Shown one piece after another: positions 15,692 through 54,168 of a stretch of DNA of 64,000 bases (the stretch's first letter is position 1; each line of letters begins with the position of its first letter). A model generated the notes under the pieces. The model did not search any database. It was not told where the DNA came from and worked only from the letters and a program-made list of their open reading frames with translations. The stretch covers positions 236,501 to 300,500 of the forward strand of contig NZ_CP068023.1 of the NCBI RefSeq assembly GCF_016695175.1, written 5' to 3'. The stretch comes from Pseudoalteromonas sp. GCY (GTDB lineage Bacteria; Pseudomonadota; Gammaproteobacteria; Enterobacterales; Alteromonadaceae). Position numbers and translations under genes: made by a program.

Positions 15692-15767
<76 letters not shown>

Positions 15768-15815
15768 TCTTTTTACCCTATCTTGTATAGGATGCTTTAG
15801 GAAAGAATTTTACGT

Positions 15816-15900
15816 GGAGGGGTTCCCGAGCGGCCAAAGGGATCAGACTGTAAATCTGACGGCTCAGCCTTCGCTGGTTCGAATCCAGCTCCCTCCACCA
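15816..15900 (+). tRNA. tRNA-Tyr (GTA)
   Basis: An 85-nt class II tRNA starting GGAGGGG and ending CCCTCCACCA, with a long variable arm. The anticodon loop CTGTAAA gives GTA for tyrosine. CCA is encoded. Confidence 0.97.
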
Positions 15901-15944
15901 CTTTATTCTTGACGGTTAGAGGTAGTTAAGAACAGGTTCCTAAA

Positions 15945-16019
<75 letters not shown>

Positions 16020-16032
16020 GTTCGTCTGGCGT

Positions 16033-16108
16033 GCTGATATAGCTCAGTTGGTAGAGCGCACCCTTGGTAAGGGTGAGGTCGGCAGTTCAAATCTGCCTAT
16101 CAGCACCA
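16033..16108 (+). tRNA. tRNA-Thr (GGT)
   Basis: A 76-nt tRNA with acceptor stem GCTGATA/TATCAGC and encoded ACCA end. The anticodon stem encloses TTGGTAA, giving GGT for threonine. It is 13 bp after tRNA-Gly and 137 bp before tuf. Confidence 0.97.
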
Positions 16109-49823: not shown

Positions 49824-49852
49824 AAAGGTGGCGGCTATCGCCGCCATACCTT
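49824..49852 (-). terminator. Terminator of the lysine operon
   Basis: AAGGT and GGCGG pair with CCGCC and ACCTT in a long stem with a CTAT-type loop and a 2-base bulge. On the minus strand the hairpin is followed by TTTTTC. It ends the dapA-dapD-lysA-hydrolase transcript. Confidence 0.7.
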
Positions 49853-49922
49853 AGTAAGCGTTAAGCTAAACAAGCAGAGCTTATTTGCTTTGACTTACTC
49901 TCACGCAATAAAAGTACTCAAG

Positions 49923-51035
49923 TCAAAGTGTTTCAACTTGAGTAAAAAACTTATAAAGCTCAGTGCCTTGATTCACACTAGCAGAGGCAAAGTGCAAAAT
50001 GGCGATGGCATCTTCGTCCAACTTGATCTCATTTAAAGGCGTTTCTGATAAATAGCGCTCCATTCTGAGAATTTTGGCGATGGTTTGGCCCGCCTTGATA
50101 TGCTCTCCAAGCTTTGCCGTATATTCCACCATGCCTCCCATTGGGGCATAAAAGGCGCGATAATTTTCTAGTCGACAGACGTAACGGGTGATGTCTTGTG
50201 GCATAAAGTGCGCGTCTTGAAAGACCTGTTTATGGTTCAGGTAGCTCAAAATGCTATTAGCGTCATTCAATGCTTCCGCTAAATCAATTTTTTCTTGAGA
50301 GCCAAGCTCAACCGTAAACGCTTCGGTTAATACTGGGATCTCTCGGCCTACAGCCTGATAGGCTTGCTGTAAGTTCCACCATGGACAAAAACTGGCTTCA
50401 TCCATTGCTCCATCAAAGTCATTTGGAATAAGTAACACATGTGGGATATCAAAATATCGAGCGCTGTCTTTTGCATACTCAGGACAATACAGGTGTTTTG
50501 CTGAAATTGGTCCCGTATGAAGGTCTAAAACAATGTCAGCCTCATGAGCTAGACGCTGTAAATTCAAGGCGATGCGCTTACCCGTTGTCAACCTATCTAA
50601 GGGCCCATCAAGTAGCGCTTGGGTGTGCTCAACTAATCGTTGGCGAAATTGCTGAGTGATTTCTGTAATTGAAAGCGTCGGATTTTGCTCCACAAACTCC
50701 GCAACCAACCCGGAATGGTTGATGTACATCCGATTCCAATTCGTGCCTGTAATTGGATCGAATCGACCTAAGGTAAACTCACCGGATTTCTGATTACAAC
50801 CAATCGGGTTTGCGTAAGGCACTAAGGTGATGTCCGCTTTTAATGACAATTGCTTTAACTGTTCCAGCAGTTGATAAATTACTGCATTACCTTGCACTTC
50901 GGCGCCATGCATATTCGCTTGAATATACACCTTAGGCCCACTGCCATCGCCTTTGATGCGATAGACCGGAATAGTCAAGGGCAGGCCATTGGCAATTTCA
51001 CCAACCTGAATATGTTGTTGTGTAATGGTATTCAT
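49923..51035 (-). CDS. AstE/aspartoacylase-family zinc hydrolase, candidate succinyl-DAP desuccinylase
   Basis: This 370-aa protein belongs to the succinylglutamate desuccinylase/aspartoacylase branch of M14-like zinc amidohydrolases. The zinc ligands are visible: H43 and E46 in NMHGAEVQGN and H173 in VLDLHTGP, with the catalytic glutamate near 244 (FTVELG). The C-terminal quarter has a lipoyl-like beta domain (MGGMVEYTAKLGEHIKAGQT). It is the last gene of a lysine-riboswitch-controlled operon, 2 bp after the decarboxylase gene. Because the succinylase pathway needs removal of a succinyl group between DapD and the decarboxylase, and no dapE is in the operon, this enzyme is a good candidate for that step. 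This is inference; a different N-acyl substrate is possible. Confidence 0.82.
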   Translation of the reverse strand: MNTITQQHIQVGEIANGLPLTIPVYRIKGDGSGPKVYIQANMHGAEVQGNAVIYQLLEQLKQLSLKADITLVPYANPIGCNQKSGEFTLGRFDPITGTNWNRMYINHSGLVAEFVEQNPTLSITEITQQFRQRLVEHTQALLDGPLDRLTTGKRIALNLQRLAHEADIVLDLHTGPISAKHLYCPEYAKDSARYFDIPHVLLIPNDFDGAMDEASFCPWWNLQQAYQAVGREIPVLTEAFTVELGSQEKIDLAEALNDANSILSYLNHKQVFQDAHFMPQDITRYVCRLENYRAFYAPMGGMVEYTAKLGEHIKAGQTIAKILRMERYLSETPLNEIKLDEDAIAILHFASASVNQGTELYKFFTQVETL

Positions 51036-51037
51036 GT

Positions 51038-52243
51038 TTACCTCAAATAACTTGAAGCGGGCTCTGCTTCACGGACACAGCTAATTTCTCCACCTGAGAT
51101 GATGTACTCTGCTGGGAGCTCATGACATAAAAAGAACGGCATACTTTCGGTGTACCCGTAGGCGCCACACTGACTGAAAACAAGCCAATCGCCATCGGCA
51201 CAGTCGCTTGGTAAGGCTAGAGTGCCTAACTTATCCAATGCTGTGCAAAGTGGGCCATGAATATGAAAATTTATGGTCTCAGCTTGAGACTGGCGTAACA
51301 ATTCCGCTGGGAAAGCTTGTCCGGTAACGGCTGGACGCAGCAGATGATTGACACCACCTGCGACAATCAGTTGTTGTTCACCATAGTTTTGCTTTTGTTC
51401 CACCACAGGGTTGAGATAAAAACCACATTCGCCAACCGCATAGCGGCCTAACTCCATCCATAATTCTTCCACTTGCGTGGCGGATTTTATCAATGCGAGC
51501 GCGCCTAATAATTTCTGCCAATTGAGAGAAGGGCTTTGCCTATCATAGGGGATGCCAAGACCACCGCCTAAGTCGAGCACCTTTAGAGTAATACCTAAAT
51601 CAGCAGCGAGCTGAACTAAAGGTGCAACCATAGCCTGCCAAAGTTCTGCTAGTGTATTGCTACAGAGCATGTTCCCCCATTGGAAAATATGCAGTCCGAC
51701 AAAGTCTAGGTGGGTGTAGTCACTTAAGGTTAGAGCTTGCCACTGCTCAGCGCCAAGACCAAAAGGAGTCAGCGTATTGCCACCAAGTGGATTGTGCTCT
51801 GCTTTATCAAAGCGTAATTGCACTCGCAGTAAAACTTCAAATTGAAGCTCAAACTCTTCGGCCACTTGATTTAACCAGCGTATTTGATTGTGACTTTCAG
51901 CCACGAAAATACGTACGCCTTGTGTTGCAAAATGACGGATCTGATTTAGCGATTTGGCAGGACCGGTGTTGAGCACGCGTTCAGGTGCGATCCCTTGAGA
52001 TAACACCTGATCAAGCTCGCCGCTAGATGCCACATCAAAGTTAAACCCTGCGTTATCTAGGGTTTGAATTATATGTGATAACGGATTCGCTTTTACGGCA
52101 TACCAAAGCTTAACGATTTGCTGATCAACTAAGGGCTTAACATGCGCACTGAGCTTATCTAAATCGTAGCAAAAGAATGGCGTATCTTGATGCTGGATCA
52201 ATGCCTCAGCTGCAGTTCGCTGTGACGTGCTCAACCAAGTCAT
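51038..52243 (-). CDS. lysA: Diaminopimelate-decarboxylase-like PLP enzyme
   Basis: This 401-aa fold-type III decarboxylase has the PLP lysine K51 in WYAVKANP, the phosphate-binding glycines DLGGGLGIPYD (227-234), ELGRYAVGECG, the catalytic cysteine C333 in HGPLCTALDKLG, and GAYGYTESMPFF. The histidine segment reads GLHIFQWGN, which differs from the usual HxHxGS of classical LysA, so it belongs to a divergent branch that includes enzymes of siderophore and polyamine pathways. Lysine riboswitch control and location after dapA and dapD favour meso-diaminopimelate as substrate, giving lysine. It overlaps dapD by one base (TAATG). Confidence 0.8.
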   Translation of the reverse strand: MTWLSTSQRTAAEALIQHQDTPFFCYDLDKLSAHVKPLVDQQIVKLWYAVKANPLSHIIQTLDNAGFNFDVASSGELDQVLSQGIAPERVLNTGPAKSLNQIRHFATQGVRIFVAESHNQIRWLNQVAEEFELQFEVLLRVQLRFDKAEHNPLGGNTLTPFGLGAEQWQALTLSDYTHLDFVGLHIFQWGNMLCSNTLAELWQAMVAPLVQLAADLGITLKVLDLGGGLGIPYDRQSPSLNWQKLLGALALIKSATQVEELWMELGRYAVGECGFYLNPVVEQKQNYGEQQLIVAGGVNHLLRPAVTGQAFPAELLRQSQAETINFHIHGPLCTALDKLGTLALPSDCADGDWLVFSQCGAYGYTESMPFFLCHELPAEYIISGGEISCVREAEPASSYLR

Positions 52244-52983
52244 TAGCGTAGAACCTCTTCCAGCGCCAGTGATGCATCACTTTGTTCATCACGATATTTT
52301 ACGATAAGTGCACATGACATACTTAGTCCTTGCTCGCGTGCCCACTCACTTGAGGCTGGGCGGGAGCCTGGGATCACTATCGCGTTTTCAGGGATGGCTT
52401 CACCTTTGTCGAGCAAGCGCTCGTTCACGCAGTCATAGACAGGAATACTTGCTGAAAGGCGCACACCCGGTGCTAATACGGCACCGCGTTTAACAACAAC
52501 CCCTTCAACCAATACACAGCCTGCACCAATAAAGGCATCGTCTTCAACAACAACAGGACTTGCTCCAACTGGTTCTAATACACCACCCACTTGCACTGCT
52601 GCGCTAAGGTGTACATTTTTACCAATTTGCGCGCAAGAACCAACCAACGCATGACTATCTACCATAGTACCTGAATCAATATAGGCACCAATGTTGACAT
52701 AAGCCGGTGGCATAATGATTGTGCCCGCTGCGACGTAAGCGCCACGTCTTACACTGCTTCCGCCAGGAACCATACGAACGCCATCTTGTGCAGCAAATCC
52801 GCGTGGTGCTAAGTTGTCTTTATCAACAAATCCACCTGGGAATTCTGTATTTACGCCATTTCTAAATGCTTCAAGGATCCCTTGTTTTACTTCTACGTTA
52901 GCATGCCAATGGCCTTGCTCATCCTGTGTTGCAGCACGTACTGTGCCATTTTCTAAATCGTTTAGTAGGGTTAACCAGCTCAT
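52243..52983 (-). CDS. dapD: Tetrahydrodipicolinate N-succinyltransferase, short form
   Basis: DapD (246 aa) transfers succinyl from succinyl-CoA to tetrahydrodipicolinate. The left-handed beta-helix is clear: VNIGAYIDSGTMVDSHALVG, SCAQIGKNVHLSAAVQVGGV, LEPVGASPVVVEDDAFIGAG. The N-terminal domain is shorter than in Escherichia coli (about 274 aa overall), and PRGF, GVRMVPGGSSVRRGAYVA resembles versions from Bacteroidetes and some other bacteria rather than the enteric enzyme. I chose ATG 52983 with AAGG upstream; the open frame runs 18 codons further into dapA. It lies 10 bp after dapA and is probably a second copy beside the housekeeping dapD. Confidence 0.93.
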   Translation of the reverse strand: MSWLTLLNDLENGTVRAATQDEQGHWHANVEVKQGILEAFRNGVNTEFPGGFVDKDNLAPRGFAAQDGVRMVPGGSSVRRGAYVAAGTIIMPPAYVNIGAYIDSGTMVDSHALVGSCAQIGKNVHLSAAVQVGGVLEPVGASPVVVEDDAFIGAGCVLVEGVVVKRGAVLAPGVRLSASIPVYDCVNERLLDKGEAIPENAIVIPGSRPASSEWAREQGLSMSCALIVKYRDEQSDASLALEEVLR

Positions 52984-52993
52984 GTTTACTGCC

Positions 52994-53878
52994 TTAGTTC
53001 CAAGATAAAATCGTTTCGTTCGCGCGAGTAATCGCATCGGTATGGGTGAGTTCCAAATGTGTCAGTGGCGGGCGCAAGTTTGGACTTGTGAGCTTGCCTT
53101 GTAAGTGCATTAACACTTTGACCGGAATGGGGTTTGCCACTGCAAATAAGCTATTTGCAGCTTCTGACCAGATGGTAAATAAATTAGGAGAGGTGCCGCT
53201 TAACGAGCGCCTTACAAATTCCGCGGTTTGCTGTGGCCATGCGTTTGCTGCAACAGACACCAGACCCGTTGCACCTGCTTGTGCAAAGTAGGGCATTAAG
53301 CCATCGTCGCCACTATAGATTGCGACATCAGGCGCTGCCTGACGAAATGCTTCAAAGGTGGCAATATCACCACTGGCTTCTTTTAGTGCCCACAGATTAG
53401 GGTGGCAAGCTAGCTCGCCGAGTAGTTCAGGGGCGATAGCAACGGCACTGCGACCAGGTACATTGTAGAGCATGCAAGGGTTGTGGCTCTCATCTAGTAG
53501 TGTGCTAAACCAATGCGCCAGACCAACTTTGCCGGGCTTTGCGTAGATTGGTGAGCCAAGTAAGAGCGCATGAATGGGCTGCGTATTACAAAAGCGCACC
53601 CACTGTGTTTGCTGCTCAAGGTTACTGCCGCCAACGGCAACCATGAGCGGTACGCTTGGGGCGAGCTGGCAAACAAACTCAACGATTTGTTGCTGCTCTT
53701 GTTGGGTAAGCGCAAGGCCTTCGCCGGTACTGCCAAGTAAAAGAATACCGTTACGAGCTTGCTCTTGATCGCGTACAAGCGCCGTTAATGCGCCAAAATC
53801 AACCTGATTTTCAGCATCAAAAGGCGTTACTAAGGCCGTCCACAACGGATAGTCAGATAAGTTGAATTGTGATTTCAT
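52994..53878 (-). CDS. dapA: Dihydrodipicolinate synthase homologue
   Basis: This 294-aa TIM-barrel aldolase condenses pyruvate with aspartate semialdehyde in the first committed step of lysine synthesis. The Schiff-base lysine K166 (NLWALKEASGD), Y138 and R143 (YNVPGRS), and the GSTGEG loop are present. The loop has Ser where most DapA enzymes have Thr, and the usual PYYNKP segment is SPIYAKPG, so it is divergent within the family, and a relative such as N-acetylneuraminate lyase must be kept in mind. Its lysine riboswitch and the dapD neighbour support DapA. First gene of the operon. Confidence 0.9.
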   Translation of the reverse strand: MKSQFNLSDYPLWTALVTPFDAENQVDFGALTALVRDQEQARNGILLLGSTGEGLALTQQEQQQIVEFVCQLAPSVPLMVAVGGSNLEQQTQWVRFCNTQPIHALLLGSPIYAKPGKVGLAHWFSTLLDESHNPCMLYNVPGRSAVAIAPELLGELACHPNLWALKEASGDIATFEAFRQAAPDVAIYSGDDGLMPYFAQAGATGLVSVAANAWPQQTAEFVRRSLSGTSPNLFTIWSEAANSLFAVANPIPVKVLMHLQGKLTSPNLRPPLTHLELTHTDAITRANETILSWN

Positions 53879-53883
53879 CTCTA

Positions 53884-53946
53884 CCGAACTTAAATCATGT
53901 TCGGAGCTAGGAGGATGTCCAAACTTCGAACCGTTAAAATTCGAAG
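53884..53946 (-). promoter_or_regulatory. Two short inverted repeats between riboswitch terminator and dapA
   Basis: CCGAAC (53884-53889) pairs with GTTCGG (53899-53904), ending 5 bases before the dapA start codon. CTTCGAA (53924-53930) pairs with TTCGAAG (53940-53946). In the mRNA the first hairpin would partly hide the ribosome binding site region. Confidence 0.4.
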
Positions 53947-53958
53947 AGCAATGGACTT

Positions 53959-53987
53959 AAAAAGGATAAGGCAGCCAATGGCCTTAT
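53959..53987 (-). terminator. Expression-platform terminator of the lysine riboswitch
   Basis: On the minus strand ATAAGGC and GCCTTAT form a 7-bp stem with an 8-base loop, followed by a T run (plus-strand A run 53959-53963). It lies 10-40 nt after the aptamer, where a lysine-dependent terminator is expected. Confidence 0.8.
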
Positions 53988-53995
53988 TTTTCTAA

Positions 53996-54168
53996 GACCA
54001 GAAGCTCTCCACCAAGTATGTTGGTGACAGTCGCTGGGATTCAGCCCAGTCGCCCGAAATGAGTATTAGCAAACAATACTCAATTTCTCGGCGTGTACTC
54101 CCCTCACTAAGCTGCAACGGAGTTTGCTCTCCTTCACTTAGCTACCTGAATAACGCACCTCTTCCAGC
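53996..54168 (-). promoter_or_regulatory. Lysine riboswitch (L box) aptamer
   Basis: Read on the minus strand, the sequence shows the conserved L-box blocks in order: AGAGGTGCGTT, AGGTAGC, GAGGGGAGTACACGCCGA, GGGCGACTGGGCTGAATCCC (wait-free core), GACTGTCACCAAC, TTGGTGGAGAGCTTCTGG. The same blocks in the same order occur in the Escherichia coli lysC riboswitch. Outer strands near 54161-54166 and 53999-54006 close the aptamer. It controls the dapA operon by transcription termination. A TTGACA on the minus strand (plus TGTCAA, 54242-54247) may be the -35 of the promoter; the -10 is unclear. The rest of the 435-bp gap holds the promoter of the opposing kinase gene, not identified. Confidence 0.93.

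Follow-up and report, generated by a model that had tools for sequence, protein, structure and literature searches.

What does a zinc amidohydrolase of the AstE/aspartoacylase (AspA) type do at the end of a lysine operon? The question is raised by a 64,000-nucleotide stretch of the Pseudoalteromonas sp. GCY genome (contig NZ_CP068023.1, positions 236,501 to 300,500; hereafter, the window), in which a lysine riboswitch precedes dapA, dapD, lysA, and a gene for such an enzyme, here called the AstE-like gene. An earlier note on this DNA proposed that the enzyme is a non-orthologous DapE, carried in a portable lysine module and taking over the step for which DapE, an M20 enzyme, is normally responsible. 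Our analysis indicates that the AstE-like protein is probably an M14-clan succinyl-diaminopimelate desuccinylase, acting as a replacement of DapE in Bacteriovoracaceae-type bacteria and as an isozyme in Pseudoalteromonas.

All features of the operon lie on the minus strand (Table 1), and the riboswitch, the terminator, the four packed genes with their coordinates and gaps (10, -1, and 2 bp), and the zinc residues H43, E46, and H173 are as first described. The hairpin behind the aptamer is probably the expression platform of the riboswitch, and the stretch from 53998 to 53920 has a folding energy of -21.2 kcal/mol (z, -3.28). Model scores also agree with the short-form dapD and the divergent decarboxylase of the earlier note: the operon DapD is over the cut-off of NF008808 but under that of TIGR00965 (177.7 versus 375.4 bits), which marks it as a short, divergent DapD, and it scores 89.8 bits against the cut-off of 231.75 of the acetyltransferase model TIGR03532. 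The lysA2 product falls below the TIGR01048 cut-off, so that "divergent" is apt, and is a decarboxylase by its fold-III domain matches, probably specific for diaminopimelate. Terminator-like sites at 49829..49944 suggest the end of the operon, although the region holds 11 such sites versus a mean of 4.7 in shuffled sequences, and single sites are thus weak evidence; the next gene on the minus strand (49709-48687) begins 213 bp beyond the AstE-like gene.

Table 1. Features of the window operon and dapD loci with an MpaA-like observation
Feature	Position	Strand	Evidence
Lysine riboswitch aptamer, RF00168	53994..54171	(-)	cmscan 91.9 bits versus gathering score 30; E 6.2e-23; full-length model 1-182
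Terminator-like hairpin with T tail	53966..53987	(-)	7 pairs; CCTTTTT tail
dapA2, 4-hydroxy-tetrahydrodipicolinate synthase, 294 aa	52994..53878	(-)	TIGR00674 250.7 bits, above cut-off 206.15
dapD2, short-form tetrahydrodipicolinate N-succinyltransferase, 246 aa	52243..52983	(-)	NF008808 295.9 bits, above cut-off 204
lysA2, divergent fold-III decarboxylase, 401 aa	51038..52243	(-)	TIGR01048 204.4 bits, below cut-off 297.9; Orn_Arg_deC_N 121.8 bits
AstE-like gene: zinc amidohydrolase of AstE/AspA type, 370 aa; proposed DapE analogue (N-succinyl-LL-diaminopimelate desuccinylase)	49923..51035	(-)	AstE_AspA_cat
Two terminator-like sites past the AstE-like gene	49944-49915 and 49846-49829	(-)	Terminator scan
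dapD loci with MpaA-like observation	L244-L273, L275, L292, L304-L307, L309-L311		Phylum of G381

The AstE-like protein matches the Pfam family AstE_AspA_cat (PF24827) with 96.7 bits (cut-off, 25) and Peptidase_M14 weakly, and its zinc motif is of the M14 type. It is far from AstE proper, its sole NCBIfam match at 1e-3 being TIGR02994 with 34.4 of the 402.7 bits needed, and neither the DapE model TIGR01246 nor any M20 family is among its NCBIfam and Pfam matches at that threshold. The three zinc residues are identical in 51 of 51 sequences, the window's included and locus L184 left outside the tally, as are R91, N101, R102, and the catalytic glutamate E243. The nearest characterised homologue by both sequence and fold is CphZ (24-25% identity), of which the structures 8EIN and 8EIP were solved with beta-Asp-Arg; the position changed in the latter (E251A) corresponds to E243 in the alignment.

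The case for DapE replacement comes mainly from outside the window's order, where a query with a divergent gammaproteobacterial protein (from genome G064) led to Bacteriovoracaceae and Halobacteriovorax records. The protein searches covered the best 120 of 1175 and the best 120 of 1011 matches, with Bacteroidota outside their coverage, and a scan of named genomes covered 80 loci, the best 80 of 443 relatives. From these we assembled 34 Bdellovibrionota-type loci, mostly from the two groups just named (one, L140, is titled Cloacimonadota) and mostly from uncultured, distant relatives of predatory bacteria. The AstE-like gene stands directly behind lysA or dapD in 30 of the 34, and in 32 there is an upstream dapD on the same strand, no more than six open reading frames (ORFs) away; the full set lysC-dapB-dapA-dapD-lysA is present in 18, several contigs ending early. 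Other genes intervene before the AstE-like gene in L148, L152, and L183, and no lysine gene is seen at L162. In the 34 carrier genomes, no protein passes the TIGR01246 cut-off (best score, 122 versus 361.8 bits), and 19 genomes give no match at all to M20 or the DapE model at 1e-3; the search took in 37 genomes, the additional three (L136, L154, and L184) having weak M20 matches. The 19 are the clean cases, most of them metagenome-assembled genomes (MAGs) of unstated completeness. We consider the AstE-like gene the best DapE candidate found in Bacteriovoracaceae-type bacteria.

The situation in the window's own genome is different, as became clear from a search for further copies of dapE, dapA, dapD, and lysA that the earlier note had advised and that went against a simple replacement there. 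Outside the operon are a canonical long DapD (486 bits), a canonical LysA (537 bits), two other DapA-like genes just under the cut-off of 206 (202 and 199 bits), and a canonical dapE (548 bits). Two further DapE-like M20 genes, at C2:2272073-2273197 and C2:1079345-1080454, score 381 and 360 bits, the latter just under the cut-off. A DapE gap in this genome is ruled out by these three genes. A fourth match to the DapE model, another M20 gene, has 108.7 bits, which gives about 100 bits as the score of an M20 gene of another kind. The genome's own proteins are no more than distant relatives of the operon copies (41% identity for DapD, 28% for LysA, 21 and 27% for DapA), which identifies the operon as a second set. 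Here, then, the AstE-like gene would encode at most a second, lysine-repressible desuccinylase.

A working scheme follows, in which we infer the substrate and reaction of the enzyme as well as the repression by lysine. The AstE-like zinc amidohydrolase would take succinate off N-succinyl-LL-diaminopimelate, the usual step of DapE, within a module that the riboswitch would turn off: lysC-dapB-dapA-dapD-lysA-astE in Bacteriovoracaceae-type bacteria and dapA-dapD-lysA-astE, beside a housekeeping set, in Pseudoalteromonas. With lysine plentiful, the housekeeping genes would continue to supply diaminopimelate for the cell wall; with lysine depleted, the module would boost flux to lysine as a second supply line.

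Within the window's order, we sampled 345 genomes, setting thresholds of 1e-40 for carriers of the AstE-like gene and 1e-60 for dapE; TIGR01246 is over its cut-off in 328 of them. There are 57 carriers, and the gene occurs in all 36 genomes searched of the window's genus. Among 11 loci retrieved with the gene, 10 (L048-L057) have dapA-dapD-lysA-astE and one (L047) has lysC-astE, and all 26 Pseudoalteromonas loci of the named-genome scan show the four-gene order, an arrangement that is not due to chance. We read the gene neighbourhood in 43 of these carriers (the window, L047, L048, and L094-L133), a locus being scored as unlinked if lysC, dapA, dapD, and lysA (dapB was not among the queries) had no match within about five ORFs on either side. 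By this measure 27 of the 43 are linked to lysine genes, as follows: seven with dapA-dapD-lysA-astE or dapD-lysA-astE (the window and six Colwellia-like genomes), seven with lysC-dapA-dapD-lysA-astE, all of one genus (g16), 12 with lysC-astE (Shewanella-like genomes and G113, with L107, where an overlapping ORF masks the gene, counted here), and one, G064, with dapB-dapD-lysA-astE, its dapB recognised by Pfam (TIGR00036, 106.7 versus 122 bits). The label "Colwellia-like," like "Alteromonas-like" for group B below, rests on gene order shared with named loci; the window's own placement agrees with named Pseudoalteromonas loci and with a P. maricaloris protein 97% identical to the window's.

Linkage to lysine genes goes with the riboswitch, which was found in 43 of the 46 lysine-linked loci scanned, the window included (by batch: window 1/1, then 9/9, 7/7, 10/10, 10/10, and 6/9). 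Every locus scanned in the genus (the window, L049-L057) has it, as do all seven scanned loci of Bdellovibrionota type; it was not detected at L098, L106, and L136, the last of which has its operon start at the edge of the stretch. A c-di-GMP-I riboswitch was seen near the lysC-astE locus of one Shewanella-like genome (L111:3450-3537).

Trees fit the view of the earlier note that this is a portable module, and the AstE-like gene travels with lysine genes and the riboswitch over two phyla. In a 41-row set, the gammaproteobacterial operon DapD groups with Bacteriovoracaceae DapD with 100/100 support (subject to a long-branch warning), which is joined neither by the DapD native to the window's genome nor by three DapD from elsewhere in that phylum. 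In the AstE-like tree, rooted at its midpoint, the two phyla separate except that G064 and L136 emerge among the Bdellovibrionota-type rows, and group B is basal in the gammaproteobacterial clade. The module was likely transferred between phyla, and any direction of that transfer is likewise inferred.

To place the Bdellovibrionota-type loci in context, we tabulated 240 genomes of that phylum around Halobacteriovorax (G381), with thresholds of 1e-40 for the AstE-like gene and 1e-20 for DapD. The former occurs in 32 genomes and the latter in 145, and DapE over the cut-off in none of the 240. All 32 carriers possess DapD, with the AstE-like gene within 7 kb of dapD; full inclusion has a chance of 2e-8 by draw alone, ignoring kinship. 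Mutual exclusion of the AstE-like gene and dapE is uninformative within this phylum, where no genome is over the cut-off and 122 have an M20 match at 1e-10, and it was this result that led to a second gene beside dapD. This gene, for an M14 protein some 217 residues long that weakly resembles the murein amidase MpaA, lies within 3.5 kb of dapD in 81 of the other 113 DapD genomes, or 78 without three hand-picked rows. Four proteins encoded next to dapD served to build its search model (A3), and the set consists of the 79 best genomes (at least 205.8 bits), 78 of which have the gene within that distance (the exception is G621), plus G568, G491, and G502, picked for lying on the dapD contig. Both distance limits were our choice and were measured start to start.

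Three of the MpaA-like proteins score 77, 87, and 95 bits on the MpaA model itself (cut-off, 157). Among the 30 top-scoring dapD loci, the gene is no more than two ORFs from dapD in 28, on the same strand in 27 and divergent in L254; at L260 it is missing from the ORF list, yet the profile search places one beside dapD in the corresponding genome (G445). In no genome of the phylum sample do AstE-like and MpaA-like genes both lie near dapD, and together they account for 113 of the 145 DapD genomes (32 plus 81, three of the latter hand-picked). MpaA cleaves the gamma-glutamyl bond to diaminopimelate, and succinyl-diaminopimelate would be only a small step away as a substrate. The MpaA-like gene is a second candidate replacement of DapE, in a group that, at a guess, includes Bdellovibrio proper. 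With slightly better than even confidence, we propose that M14-clan amidases replaced DapE at least twice, once by an AstE/CphZ-like and once by an MpaA-like enzyme, and that the first module, riboswitch included, came to be shared with marine gammaproteobacteria as a lysine-repressible bypass.

Several observations weigh against a DapE role for the AstE-like protein. As to the Bdellovibrionota-type genomes, TIGR01246 is of proteobacterial type, matching 13 of 14 control genomes and passing its cut-off in only two, which leaves room for a divergent DapE below the cut-off in the 15 carriers, of the 34, that do have an M20 match; in the phylum sample, 12 of the 32 carriers have an M20 match at 1e-10 (best, 107 bits). 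Most of these carriers are MAGs whose completeness is not stated, counts from related genomes are not independent, and the negative covers the M20 model only, DapL and Ddh (other diaminopimelate routes) not having been searched for. Moreover, 32 of the 145 DapD genomes have neither an AstE-like nor an MpaA-like gene near dapD; these include L274 and L276-L291 and likewise lack a DapE over the cut-off. Mutual exclusion fails in the window's order, where 56 of the 57 carriers also have dapE. The sole carrier without it at 1e-60 is the MAG G064 (92% complete, 5% contamination), whose M20 matches reach 97.7 bits, and the fuller operon of g16 occurs alongside canonical dapE, so that the AstE-like gene need not be essential in gammaproteobacteria. 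The proposal of a non-orthologous DapE is supported for the Bdellovibrionota-type genomes, whose lysine operons are nearly complete and in which no canonical DapE was detected, but not for the window's genome and its order; within that order, the gene co-occurs with riboswitch-controlled dapD but not with dapE loss.

The earlier note had also named the presence of the gene away from operon and riboswitch as evidence against its proposal, and this was found in part: 16 of the 43 loci read in the order have no lysine neighbour, and the riboswitch was detected in none of the 11 of these scanned (10 of group B and L094). Most of the 16 belong to group B, a set of proteins 44-48% identical (L099-L105 and L116-L123, 10 of these 15 loci having been scanned); in one of its loci, L121, the AstE-like gene comes after a MoeB/ThiF-type gene. 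Such loci bring up the idea of drift, in which the gammaproteobacterial enzyme would now act on another N-acyl substrate, the Bacteriovoracaceae enzyme being a DapE and the operon position in Pseudoalteromonas a relic. Gene content makes the enzyme dispensable in the order, and the window protein is only 34-41% identical to the Bdellovibrionota-type ones, with differences between the clades at H181/Y, Q247/E, and K362/Q. We nonetheless regard drift as unlikely, given that adjacency to dapD and lysA is kept in nine of nine genus loci fetched and throughout the Pseudoalteromonas scan, that every genus locus scanned has the riboswitch, and that the zinc, catalytic, and NxNR residues are unchanged.

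It could also be that the enzyme serves salvage rather than biosynthesis, freeing lysine under riboswitch control from N-acyl-lysine or beta-aspartyl-lysine dipeptides in times of scarcity. Homology to CphZ fits this idea, as does lysC-astE standing alone under a riboswitch in the Shewanella-like loci, and the tie between operon and DapE absence is not strict, as g16 and the other dapE-retaining carriers of the order illustrate. The gene, however, is part of biosynthetic operons that include dapB, dapA, and dapD, and the Bdellovibrionota-type genomes with near-complete operons have no DapE over the cut-off; salvage seems to us very improbable.

The locus L136, in a 1.5-Mb MAG titled Gammaproteobacteria, may point to arginine instead. 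There (L136:119-10122), dapA-dapD-lysA is followed by genes for an N-acetylornithine carbamoyltransferase (argF type), argG, an argB-type gene, argC, and argH and then by the AstE-like gene. An arginine route with N-acetylornithine carbamoyltransferase needs a deacylase, so that the enzyme may act there on N-acetylornithine or N-acetylcitrulline or serve both routes, a further point against a role confined to lysine. The family NF052223, which judging by its name alone is presumably that of the Shewanella protein SO_3749, has no match to the window protein at 1e-3, and the MpaA-like proteins of L252 and L244 match it weakly (18.5 and 16.5 versus 400 bits). According to passages of PMC3219624, SO_3749 does the job of ArgE in Shewanella, as shown by complementation, and has no detectable homology to Escherichia coli ArgE. 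Arginine genes were recognised in L136 only, few neighbourhoods having been annotated beyond lysine genes, and nearly all other linked loci have the lysine riboswitch and lysine genes; an arginine-branch or bifunctional deacylase is accordingly a quite unlikely general explanation. Elsewhere in the window, four tRNA genes cluster at 15692-16105.

Parts of this picture are in print. Passages of PMC5584792 give a riboswitch operon dapA-dapD-lysA-hypothetical1-hypothetical2 in Pseudoalteromonas, its last genes without function, and lysC-dapB-dapA-dapD-lysA in Bacteriovorax marinus, naming no desuccinylase. In those of PMC7311316, which concern two Bacteroidota, GapMind has DapE missing in a Pedobacter and both DapE and DapC missing in Echinicola with a DapD candidate. 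An AstE- or M14-type DapE has no earlier description in the titles and abstract openings of the papers listed by our literature searches, which mostly exclude subscription journals, or in passages of PMC5584792, PMC7311316, PMC3219624, PMC12661447, PMC11511702, PMC9021917, and PMC3322598. If our reading is correct, a second, unrelated enzyme class for the DapE step would fill a known kind of pathway gap, and, DapE being an essential enzyme under study as an antibiotic target, bacteria bearing the module could sidestep DapE inhibitors under lysine scarcity.

Compared with known systems, the proposed enzyme would share with DapE the reaction, the pathway step, and hydrolysis by zinc, with a presumed likeness of mechanism, and differ from it in superfamily. 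With AstE proper and aspartoacylase it has the family of the catalytic domain in common. Two structural-genomics entries, 3FMC (Shewanella amazonensis Sama_0604) and 3LWU (S. frigidimarina), are filed as putative succinylglutamate desuccinylase/aspartoacylase; papers that mention 3FMC are, going by their titles, on other subjects, and on our reading both structures, released in 2009 and 2010, would be probable desuccinylases. SO_3749 of Shewanella oneidensis is likewise a non-orthologous replacement of an amino-acid deacylase in a biosynthetic route, albeit in another pathway and with complementation shown, whereas the role proposed here is a prediction from sequence. CphZ is the cyanophycin dipeptide hydrolase of Acinetobacter baylyi; what we state of it comes from PDB titles, which give beta-Asp-Arg as its substrate, and from a passage of PMC12661447, as our literature search found no paper devoted to it. 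Its link to the AstE-like protein is one of homology, and a basic amino acid succinylated at its alpha-amino group has nearly the same amide bond as the beta-Asp-Arg that CphZ cleaves.

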